Origin: Deltaproteobacteria bacterium | GTDB lineage: Bacteria; Myxococcota_A; Polyangia; Fen-1088 | Direction: 5' to 3' | NCBI GenBank assembly: GCA_016935975.1 | Contig: JAFGPX010000125.1 | Span: 1 to 37,938 of the forward strand | Length of the DNA: 37,938 nucleotides | Shown here: piece by piece, positions 7,635 to 12,457 of the stretch | Layout of the letters: each line of letters opens with the position of its first letter | How positions within the stretch are numbered: position 1 is the stretch's first letter | Notes under the pieces: model-generated | The model's database searches: none | Seen by the model: the letters and a program-made list of their open reading frames with translations, nothing else | Told to the model about the DNA's origin: nothing | Program-made: the position numbers and the translations under genes

Positions 7635-8336
7635 CTAGTCCGTGTAGAAGAAGAGCGAGCCCATGTAGTTGATGTTGCTGACCTCGAGCTCCATCGTCCA
7701 GGAATCACCGAGCTTCGAGAAGTCGATGAGATGGAAACCGGCCCCGAGCCCCATGGAGAACCAGCGGGTGAAGAAGTGCTCGACGTTCAGGGCCACGGGG
7801 ATGCCAATGCCGATGGCGGTTTCGTCCGCAACTGCTGGATCCTTGCCGAACGAGAGCCCGAGGCCCACACCGGCGTCGAAGCGGGTGGAAGCACCCTTGA
7901 GCAGGTTGAACATCGCGAGCACCGATGGTGCGAACTCCCAACTCGCATCGACGTCCTTGATCTTGGTCATCGTGAGGGACAGCGATGGCAGGATGGCGAG
8001 CGCGTCACTGAGCCAGTACTTCATCATCACATACGAGGTGTTCGGGATGATGAGGCTGCTGGTGCCCGCGCTGACGCCCACGCCGAAGCCGACGGAGCCG
8101 GTCATGTCGTCTGCGGCCGGGGGCGCCACTACGGGGGCGACCGGCATGACCGCGCCCATCTCGGGGCCAGGCATCGGGGCTGGCGCCGGCGCTGGCGCCG
8201 GCGCGGGGTACGCCATGGGCGGCGGGGGAGCAGGGGCGTAGACGGGCGCGGGCGCGGGCGCCTGCGCGAAGGCAGGCAGGACCGCGCCGAGCATGGCAGC
8301 AATAGCGGTCATTGAGATGAGGGCGATTCTCGTCAT
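7635..8336 (-). CDS. Secreted outer-membrane beta-barrel protein, Pro/Ala linker
   Basis: 233 residues from ATG 8336. The ORF track begins 26 codons earlier (MCPCGTHVG...), but ATG 8336 is preceded by GGAAGGAAGGAAG and followed directly by a signal peptide ending AFAQ, so it is preferred. After a Pro/Ala-rich linker (about residues 26-75) comes a barrel-like domain (VGFGVGVSAG ... NYMGSLFFYTD) resembling small OmpA/OmpW-type barrels, without a named family. An operator-like CATGTG/CACATG cluster lies 57-81 bp upstream, and a strong terminator follows the gene. The function is unknown. Confidence 0.82.
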   Translation of the reverse strand: MTRIALISMTAIAAMLGAVLPAFAQAPAPAPVYAPAPPPPMAYPAPAPAPAPAPMPGPEMGAVMPVAPVVAPPAADDMTGSVGFGVGVSAGTSSLIIPNTSYVMMKYWLSDALAILPSLSLTMTKIKDVDASWEFAPSVLAMFNLLKGASTRFDAGVGLGLSFGKDPAVADETAIGIGIPVALNVEHFFTRWFSMGLGAGFHLIDFSKLGDSWTMELEVSNINYMGSLFFYTD

Positions 8337-9113: not shown

Positions 9114-10535
9114 CTAGCCAATCCGAAAGACCTTGCGTGCATCCGCGACTTGGCCGGTGACGGCCGCCGCCGCGACCATGAGCGGGCTCATGAGCAGGGT
9201 GCGGCCTTGCGGCGAGCCCTGCCGGCCCTTGAAGTTGCGGTTCGAGGACGAGGCGCAGATCTCGCGACCCTGCAGCTTGTCGGGGTTCATGGCCAGGCAC
9301 ATCGAGCAGCCGGCCTCGCGGAACAGGAACCCGGCGTCTGCAAACACCTTGTCCCAACCGCGTGCGATCATGTCCTTGCGCACCTGCACCGAGCCGGGCA
9401 CGACAAGCGCGCGCACGTTCGGCTTGACCTTGTGCCTGCCGCCCTCGAGCACCTTGACCACCTCCTCGAAGTCCGACAGGCGGCCGTTGGTGCACGAGCC
9501 GATGAAGGCCACGTCGATCTTCGTGCCGGCGATGGGCTGGCCGGGCTTGAAGTCCATGTAGCCGTAGGCTTCGCGGACCCCGTCGCGCTCGTCGGTCGGG
9601 AAGGCGTCCAGCGCCGGGATGGTGCCGTCTACGGCGACGGACTGGGCCGGCGTGATGCCCCAGGTGACCACGGGCGGGATGTCCTCGGCCTTGAACGAGA
9701 CCACGTCGTCGTACCGGGCGCCGGGATCGCTCCTGACGCTCTCCCAGTAGGCCACCGCGCGCTGCCAGGCCGCGCCCTTGGGCGCGTACTCGCGCCCCGC
9801 AAGGTAGTCGTAGGTGGTCTGGTCCGGGTTGACGTAACCGCAGCGCGCGCCGCCTTCGATGCTCATATTGCAGACGGTCATGCGTTCGTCCATGGTCATG
9901 CGGTCGAAAAGATCGCCCGCGTACTCGTAGGCAAAGCCCACGCCGCCCTTCACACCCAGCTTCTGAATGATGTAGAGGATCACGTCCTTGGCGTAGACGC
10001 CCGGCCCGAGCTTGCCTGTGACCTCGATGCGGCGGACCTTGAGCTTTTCCATCGCGAGAGTCTGCGTGGCCAGCACGTCGCGGATCTGCGAGGTGCCGAT
10101 GCCGAAGGCCAGGGCGCCGAAGGCGCCGTGGGTGGCGGTGTGCGAGTCGCCGCAGCAGATGGTCATGCCCGGCTGGGTCAGGCCGCGCTCGGGGCCCACG
10201 ACGTGCACGATGCCGTTCTCGTTGGCCGCGGGCGAGAAGAAGCGGATGCCGAAGTCCTTCACGCTCTTCTCCAGGCTTCGCATCATCTCCTCCGCCATGG
10301 CGTCCTCGAACGGGCGCAGCTTGGTGTGGGTCGGCACGATGTGGTCCACCGTGGCGAACGTCCGCTCGGGAAACATGACCTTGAGCTTGCGCTCCCGGAT
10401 CATGGCGAAGGCCTGCGGCGAGGTCACCTCGTGCAGCAGGTGCAGCCCCATGAGCAACTGCGCCTGCCCCGAGGGCAACTGGCGGACGACGTGGTTGTCG
10501 AAGACTTTCTCGTAGAGGGTTCGGGCCGTGGTCAC
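9114..10535 (-). CDS. leuC: 3-isopropylmalate dehydratase large subunit
   Basis: 473 residues, aconitase superfamily. It binds a [4Fe-4S] cluster through the Cys of GSCTNGR and the two Cys of AGCSMC, all present, and carries [21 protein letters not shown]. The ORF track reads through from 10949, but that part is antisense or out of frame with marR. The true start is GTG 10535, which overlaps the marR TGA as GTGA and has a perfect AGGAGG seven nt upstream, inside the end of marR. The length matches bacterial LeuC. Translation is probably coupled to marR, so the regulator and the enzyme should be made from one mRNA. No other leu gene is in the window. Confidence 0.96.
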
Positions 10536-10993
10536 TTGTGCTCCTCCTTCCTGCCGTACTGTTCGAGCCGGTCGCAAAGCCGATTGCCGAATCCGACGAA
10601 GTTCTTCACCTCCGACGGGTCGAGCCCAAGCCAGATCCGCTCGATGGCCTGCTCGCGCTCCTGCCGCAGGGCTTCGAGCGCGCGCTTGCCTTTGGCGGAA
10701 AGCTGGTAGGCGCGCTGGCGTCCGTCGGCTTTCGACAGGGACACGCTGACCAGGCCCTTGCCGAGAAGCTGGCGCAGGGTCTTGGAGACGGCGGCGGCCG
10801 AGCTGTCGCGCGTCTTGGCGAACATGCTGGGCATGAAGTGGTCGGTCGCGATCTCTTCCAGCAACGCCCACTGTCCGTCCGAGAGCCCGACCGACAAGGC
10901 CAGCTCCTCGCGCCGGCGGCGGAAAGCGTCGGACAGCCGGCGCAGGCAAGCGATGCCCGCGTGGGCCGAGGCGACGGTCGTTTTGCTTGCCAT
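10532..10993 (-). CDS. MarR-family transcriptional regulator heading the leuCD operon
   Basis: 153 residues with a winged helix-turn-helix: [14 protein letters not shown], then [40 protein letters not shown] spanning the recognition helix and wing. It is a probable dimeric DNA-binding repressor whose ligand is unknown. The ORF track starts at TTG 10999, but ATG 10993 is the better start because the -10 (AATTAT) ends six nt before it, making a leaderless mRNA likely. The promoter contains a palindrome, TTAACC-CA-GGTTAA, between -35 and -10, so autoregulation, and with it control of leuCD, is strongly suggested. Its TGA overlaps the leuC GTG. MarR control of isopropylmalate isomerase is not a textbook arrangement. 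Confidence 0.9.
10543..10548 (-). promoter_or_regulatory. Perfect Shine-Dalgarno that fixes the leuC GTG start
   Basis: AGGAGG on the minus strand lies seven nt before GTG 10535, inside the last codons of marR. It decides between this start and the far upstream ORF-track start. Confidence 0.85.
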
Positions 10994-10999
10994 GGGCAA

Positions 11000-11028
11000 A
11001 TAATTAACCCAGGTTAACTAAAAGTCAA
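11000..11028 (-). promoter_or_regulatory. Promoter of marR-leuC-leuD
   Basis: Minus strand: TTGACT (11028-11023, 5 of 6 to the consensus), a 17-nt spacer, then AATTAT (11005-11000). Transcription would start at or within a nucleotide or two of ATG 10993. Confidence 0.7.
11001..11020. promoter_or_regulatory. Palindromic operator, probable MarR binding site
   Basis: TTAACC-CA-GGTTAA (11004-11017) is a perfect 14-bp palindrome with 2-nt centre, extended by TA/TA at the ends to 20 bp. It fills the spacer between the -35 and -10 of the marR promoter, where a bound dimer would block RNA polymerase. A 15-20 bp AT-rich palindrome is typical of MarR sites. Confidence 0.7.
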
Positions 11029-11088
11029 GGGCGCGATGAATCGCGCCCTGCGTCCTGACGCATGTGTAGGGGCGCAATTCATTGCGCC
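11028..11088. repeat. REP-like cluster of three consecutive palindromes
   Basis: AGGGCGCGAT-GA-ATCGCGCCCT (11028-11049), TGCGTC-CT-GACGCA (11049-11062) and GGCGCAAT-TC-ATTGCGCC (11071-11088) follow one another, each with a 2-nt centre. The flank GTAGGGGCGCAATTC resembles the short GTAGGGGCG... palindromic units dispersed in intergenic DNA of many bacteria. It lies between the MFS gene end and the marR promoter, whose -35 it touches. It could insulate or terminate the upstream transcript. Confidence 0.65.
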
Positions 11089-11125
11089 TCGGGGCGGGCG
11101 ATCGCCATGACGCCCGTGCGGCCGC

Positions 11126-12457
11126 TCACGTCGCGGGTGCCTGGTTGGCGTCGGGATTCTTGCCGAACGGCGCGAGCCAGGCCAGCGCGATGGACGGGAT
11201 CGACGCCAGCAGCACGAAAAGGAAGAAGTTGTGGTAGTGCAGCGCCGCCTGGATCTTCCCGCTCACCATCCCGGTGAGCATCATGTTGAGCGCCATGACG
11301 CCCGTGGCGAAGGCGTAGTGGGCCGTGCGGTAGGGGCCGGGCGACAGCTCTTGCATCATGTAGAGCATCATCCCGACCGTCCCGAGGCCGTAGCCGAACT
11401 TCTCGACGAACACCGTCCCCGCGATCAGGGTCAGGTTCGTGGGCATGGTGTGGCTCAGGTAGAAGTAGGTGACGAGCGGGACGTTGAGGCAGAAGGCCAA
11501 GAGCACGAACACGCGGCGCAGGGTCAGGCGCGCGGCGACGAAGCCGCCGAGCAGGGTGCCGGCGACGAAGACCACGGTGCCGATGGCGTTGATGTGGCCG
11601 AGCGCCATGTTGTCGAGCCCCAGGCCGCCGACCTCGCGCCGGTCGATGAGGAAGAGCGGGCCGATCTTCTCGATGAACCCTTCGCCGAAACGATAGAAGA
11701 AGACCACCGCGATCATCATCCACACGCGCGGCTTGCGAAAGAAGCTGGCCCAGGCGTCTCCCGTGGTGCGCAAGGCTTCGGACACGCTGCGGGCGGCATC
11801 CGGCGCCTTCGAGCCCGGCGGCAGCAAGAAATAGTGCCAGAGCGCCGTCGCGGCCAGGATGGCCGCGATGATGAGCATGACGACCATCCACGCCACGAAC
11901 CAGGCCGGATGCGGCCCTGCGGCCGGCGCGGGGCGGCCGGCGGCGGCCCAGTCGAAGAGGATCTTGGTGAGGCTGACGAGCGAGCCGGACACCAGCACCC
12001 GCCCCAAGTTCCAGAACGCCCCCTGGACGCCAATGTAGAGCGCCTGCTCTTTCTCCGTCGAGGAGGTCAGGTAGACGCCGTCGCCCGCGATGTCCTGCGT
12101 GGCCGAGGCGAAGCCGATGATCCAGAAGAACGCGATGCTGAGCGGCAGGTAGATGGGCAGCCTGAGCGCCAAGGCTAGGCAGGTGAAGGTCACGACCATG
12201 GTGCACTCCATGGCCAGCACGAAGAACTTCTTGGTGCGGAACAACTCGACGAGCGGGGCCCACAGCGGCTTGAGCACCCAGGGCAGGTACATGGCGCCGG
12301 TGTAGGCCGCGATCTCGGTGTTCGACAGCCCCAGGTTCTTGTACATGATGGCCGCCACGACCGACACGGCGATCATGGGCGTGCCCATGGCGAAGTAGAG
12401 GCTGGGAACCCAGAGCAAGGGATGCGCGCGCTTGGCTTCGCCGGTCATGGTGCGCAT
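11126..12457 (-). CDS. MFS transporter, AmpG/PAT-like
   Basis: 443 residues, twelve predicted helices, Major Facilitator Superfamily. The segment WIIGFASATQDIAGDGVYL near residue 115 matches the ATQDI signature of AmpG-type permeases, which import anhydro-muropeptides for cell-wall recycling in Gram-negatives. The substrate here is not proven. A large cytoplasmic linker (residues 205-250) separates the two six-helix halves. Start: ATG 12457 or ATG 12448 (nine bases later); TAGAGC upstream would suit a nearly leaderless transcript from 12448. It is a single gene, with the REP-like palindromes beyond its stop. Confidence 0.8.
   Translation of the reverse strand: MRTMTGEAKRAHPLLWVPSLYFAMGTPMIAVSVVAAIMYKNLGLSNTEIAAYTGAMYLPWVLKPLWAPLVELFRTKKFFVLAMECTMVVTFTCLALALRLPIYLPLSIAFFWIIGFASATQDIAGDGVYLTSSTEKEQALYIGVQGAFWNLGRVLVSGSLVSLTKILFDWAAAGRPAPAAGPHPAWFVAWMVVMLIIAAILAATALWHYFLLPPGSKAPDAARSVSEALRTTGDAWASFFRKPRVWMMIAVVFFYRFGEGFIEKIGPLFLIDRREVGGLGLDNMALGHINAIGTVVFVAGTLLGGFVAARLTLRRVFVLLAFCLNVPLVTYFYLSHTMPTNLTLIAGTVFVEKFGYGLGTVGMMLYMMQELSPGPYRTAHYAFATGVMALNMMLTGMVSGKIQAALHYHNFFLFVLLASIPSIALAWLAPFGKNPDANQAPAT

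Follow-up and report, generated by a model that had tools for sequence, protein, structure and literature searches.

A probable inverted pair of GTAG-type REPs beside the conserved, older promoter of a marR gene in a deltaproteobacterial genome

The palindromes on the right-hand side of a cluster upstream of a marR gene are, with a probability of about 0.93, one inverted pair of GTAG-type REPs (small hairpin elements that are not autonomous) lying beside an older marR promoter. The DNA analysed (the window) is the 37,938-nt forward strand of contig JAFGPX010000125.1 of Deltaproteobacteria bacterium (assembly GCA_016935975.1), and the host genome that was searched is a 94%-complete draft of 5.39 Mb in 341 contigs. 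The marR site was compared using orthologues from 10 relatives; genomes G001 and G002 are congeners of the host, and G039 belongs to the same class.

Direct reading and a repeat search both show four perfect palindromes, each with a 2-nt centre, within 11004-11088 at one promoter, as the sequence-only reading had it. They represent three different things, namely a probable MarR operator, a REP pair and the spacer of that pair:

10532-10993, minus strand: marR, gene for a MarR-family regulator, ATG at 10993 (translation, Pfam, orthologues in 10 relatives)
11000-11028, minus strand: marR promoter (consensus scan; layout shared by 10 orthologues)
11004-11017, no strand: probable operator and first palindrome, TTAACC (11004-11009), CA, GGTTAA (11012-11017) (sequence, conservation in orthologues)
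11028-11052, minus strand (canonical strand): REP copy 1, partly decayed
11028-11049: second palindrome, within REP copy 1, AGGGCGCGAT (11028-11037), GA, ATCGCGCCCT (11040-11049)
11049-11065, no strand: spacer of the REP pair
11049-11062: third palindrome, within the spacer, TGCGTC (11049-11054), CT, GACGCA (11057-11062)
11066-11088, plus strand: REP copy 2, GTAGGGGCGCAATTCATTGCGCC, with an intact GTAG head at 11066-11069
11071-11088: fourth palindrome, within REP copy 2, GGCGCAAT (11071-11078), TC, ATTGCGCC (11081-11088)
11126-12457, minus strand: MFS transporter gene (PF07690), upstream of marR on the same strand

Four centres in 88 bp are not a chance occurrence: in 20 first-order Markov surrogates of the whole window there were at most three centres per 88 bp, and never four. 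The spacer palindrome taken alone is a weak signal (chance P ~0.005 in shuffles of the spacer). The order of the palindromes had been read correctly, but the operator is not followed at once by the next one, as 10 nt (11018-11027), comprising most of the -35, intervene. Elsewhere in the window there is only one other perfect palindrome of 10 bp with a 2-nt centre, at 8183-8204. An Rfam scan of the window matched no family, and a tRNA scan found no tRNA.

The consensus of the dispersed repeat is GTAGGGGCGCRATTCATYGCGCCC, and 11028-11049 and 11066-11088 are its two inverted copies. The defining feature of the group, an unpaired GTAG (GYAG/GTRG) at one foot of the stem, is found in both, as GTAG in copy 2 and as GCAG in copy 1, whose stem foot is also short by one G and which matches the search pattern with 1 mismatch (11030-11049, minus strand). 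The window holds a single GTAG-headed unit, compared with an expected 0. The pair is arranged tail-to-tail with the GTAG heads inside. A further pair, on contig C103, is also tail-to-tail and almost matches it in spacing and geometry; the palindrome TGCGTC-CT-GACGCA was not found there. The earlier proposal that all three right-hand palindromes form a REP/BIME-type unit survives for two of them, which are copies of a multicopy REP, but not for the middle one, which is spacer only.

When the pattern is oriented, the host genome contains 53 REP copies at up to 1 mismatch in the core and 0 matches to a reversed control. A near-symmetric pattern, which reads almost alike on both strands, gave 82 and 74; we prefer the value of 53 because the near-symmetric pattern counts many copies twice. 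The unit, whose dispersal had been suspected from the window alone, is therefore multicopy and is absent at this site in relatives, rather than unique in the genome and conserved in all relatives. The full GTAGGGGCGC head is borne by 28 distinct sites whose loci were read. Among the 15 neighbouring pairs no more than 250 bp apart, GTAG lies outside in 11, inside in 2 and in tandem in 2, so that 13 of the 15, the window pair included, are inverted. All 35 scored REP sites are intergenic (the coding fraction of the window is 0.895), and according to a codon-usage gene caller written for this analysis they are flanked by convergent genes in 17 cases, by unidirectional genes in 16 and by divergent genes in none, with the remaining 2 at contig edges. 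At approximately 14 sites the end of a gene coincides exactly with the REP edge, and the stop codon is mostly the TAG of the GTAG head. The copies thus carry the hallmarks of GTAG REPs/BIMEs, being intergenic, missing between divergent genes and supplying TAG stops from their heads. A literature search for the core sequence of the repeat returned no matching paper.

None of the relatives with a marR orthologue carries the REP at this site. Two REP matches, at least one of them with a decayed head, were found in the congener G001, and none in G002 or in the other family members searched; both congeners match the marR promoter but not the adjoining repeat. In the host the gap between the MFS gene and marR is 132 bp, much of it occupied by the REP pair. 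The two congeners have MFS orthologues 89% identical to the host gene, and in G002 the MFS gene and marR are encoded on the same contig in the same order, approximately 2 kb apart, separated by a nitronate-monooxygenase-like gene (C212:40261-42271) that is missing in the host (11034-11161). In G001, a similar gene end precedes marR. A clean empty site cannot be shown, since the flanks in G002 are ~2 kb apart with another gene between them; loss of this gene here and its gain in the congeners are indistinguishable, and the REP is therefore not to be read as a clean insertion into an ancestral gap.

The product of marR matches Pfam MarR_2/MarR slightly below the cut-offs and HTH_27 at the cut-off. 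A consensus scan places the -35 (TTGACT) at 11028-11023 and the -10 (AATTAT) at 11005-11000, with a 17-nt spacer. The marR mRNA is probably leaderless, because the ATG lies only 6 nt past the -10; the distance is about 6 nt in the orthologues too, and the layout suggests that the transcript is probably leaderless across the whole family. The operator occupies the promoter spacer and the -10. TTAACC..GGTT(A/C/T)A or TTAAC..GTTAA is retained upstream of marR orthologues, and the promoter/operator block is present in all 10-11 orthologues compared (for example CCTTGACTTTTAGTTAACCGTAGTTAACTATTATCCCATG in G002). By analogy with the MarR family, TTAACC-CA-GGTTAA is a probable MarR autoregulatory site, and it owes nothing to the dispersed repeat. 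The marR promoter is conserved, older than the REP pair and probably autoregulated.

The current view is that a REP-associated tyrosine transposase (RAYT/TnpA-REP) copies REPs of the GTAG kind in the form of single-stranded DNA. The cognate transposase of this family would be a RAYT of subclass 2.4 (group 4), and such an enzyme may have mobilised the pair in the past. The pair would then have come to lie between the MFS gene and marR, ending at the -35 and supplying neither promoter nor operator sequence. Folded as RNA on the marR strand, it reaches -39.8 kcal/mol (z -6.35 versus shuffles). The transporter mRNA would carry it as a strong 3' hairpin, with 3'-end protection or weak transcription termination as possible effects, both of which have been proposed for REPs elsewhere. 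The likeliest view is that this hairpin is neutral or of slight benefit at the 3' end of the transporter transcript. We regard the pair as an ordinary repeat and not as a new control element, since it is a dispersed REP pair beside a promoter that it did not create.

A different question is whether the pair has been co-opted as a terminator or insulator, the hairpin AGGGCGCGAU-UCAUCGCGCCCU followed by UGACUUUUAG ending MFS transcription before the marR promoter; this concerns function and is compatible with REP identity. There is room for such a role because a terminator-like match exists on the marR strand at 11049-11028 (REP copy 1 followed by TGACTTTTAG) and because in G002 an unrelated, single-copy hairpin, GGCGAAATCGCCGCGATTTCGCC (C212:42271-42293), abuts the marR -35 at the identical spot. 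Being single-copy in G002, that hairpin was rejected as another REP. However, the T tract is weak and interrupted, and the T run falls within the conserved promoter, where most relatives have it without a hairpin; the 60 nt upstream fold unremarkably in other genera (z -0.8 to 1.2) and only modestly in G001 and G002. An insulator role of a hairpin at the -35 is thus possible, is not conserved across the family, and seems to us unlikely for the REP pair. Still more doubtful is a broader scenario in which the intervening gene was lost, a stray REP pair then took over as insulator of the autoregulated marR promoter, an unrelated hairpin fills that role at the same position in the sister species, and the REPs have been kept by a genome lacking a cognate transposase of its own.

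The crowding of four palindromes with 2-nt centres at one promoter could also suggest an array of local regulatory sites used by MarR or another factor. This is very improbable, as three distinct sequences are involved, conservation at the orthologues is confined to the operator, and two of the palindromes belong to a dispersed repeat; for the REP copies, multicopy dispersal and absence in relatives rule it out. The earlier suggestion that the repeat supplied the -35 or other marR promoter sequence, based on the outer end of REP copy 1 touching TTGACT, has next to nothing left in its favour: relatives without the repeat still have the -35, operator, -10 and start codon in conserved form (CCTTGACTTTTAGTTAACC is identical in the REP-less G001 and G002 and recognisable across the family). 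This explains the palindrome cluster and distinguishes the probable MarR operator from the neighbouring repeat sequence, which guards against reading the REPs as regulatory sites.

The RAYT-type Y1 transposase for which the sequence-only reading recommended a search did not appear in the host draft (94% complete, 341 contigs), and the cognate type was found in other genomes. No Y1_Tnp (PF01797) was detected in the host assembly, a cognate RAYT protein query gave nothing above noise, and the RAYT model NF047646 recovered no cognate gene, its one match being G000:C201:44-202. That match was considered as a RAYT cut off at a REP and rejected, as it covers only a C-terminal part of another transposase, which is longer and has no REPs. 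RAYT-like genes of G001 and G002 were likewise rejected as cognate, since they are of a distant type with no GTAGGGG repeats nearby. Absence from the host is provisional because a repeat-riddled gene is easily lost from a draft of 341 contigs, and we therefore claim REP identity for the repeat but not a working REPtron in the host.

In G039 and in the complete genome of gamma proteobacterium HdN1, the same REP flanks a RAYT gene and also occurs in frame within it, encoding ...GAMNRAPTLG.... It is further found inside the RAYT in G141, G091 and G076 and beside it in G143, and in other RAYTs of the phylum it is replaced by sister REPs with the same GTAGGGGC foot; the query used for this phylum search contained the REP-encoded peptide, which slightly favours REP-bearing genes. 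A REP within or beside the RAYT is described as the trait that sets TnpA-REP subclass 2.4, or RAYT group 4, apart from the others (PMC6006769), and we accordingly count this arrangement as already known.

The exact consensus 24-mer occurs in at least 116 stretches from many bacterial phyla. Among the matches listed are Deltaproteobacteria, Myxococcales, Gallionella, Coriobacteriales, Armatimonadetes, Poribacteria, Acidobacteria, Chloroflexi, Gemmatimonadetes, Planctomycetota, Nitrospirae, Omnitrophota and others, and some of these taxon labels may be wrong because most are metagenome bins. Identity across phyla may reflect horizontal spread, strong constraint or bin contamination; a letter-identical 24-nt REP in bins of many phyla offers a small lead on the spread of REPs and their transposases between lineages.

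Among known systems, the REP/BIMEs of E. coli with their TnpA-REP (PMC8266576) share GTAG-headed hairpins and inverted pairs with the repeat described here, but have a bulged stem and a transposase of another subclass. The REPs of TnpA-REP subclass 2.4 / RAYT group 4 (PMC6006769) share the long canonical REP and three G-C pairs at the stem foot, although no transposase of that type was found in the host draft. Di Nocera et al. 2013 (PMC3733652) list 24 families of GTAG REPs and describe dimers in inverted orientation, spacers with structure of their own, heads that provide stop codons, and tolerance of GYAG in the head. Compared by such features, the repeat shares the GTAG head, a short perfect stem, a 2-nt loop fitting TY, inverted pairs with structured spacers, the use of the TAG of the head as a stop codon, and an intergenic location at convergent and unidirectional gene ends.
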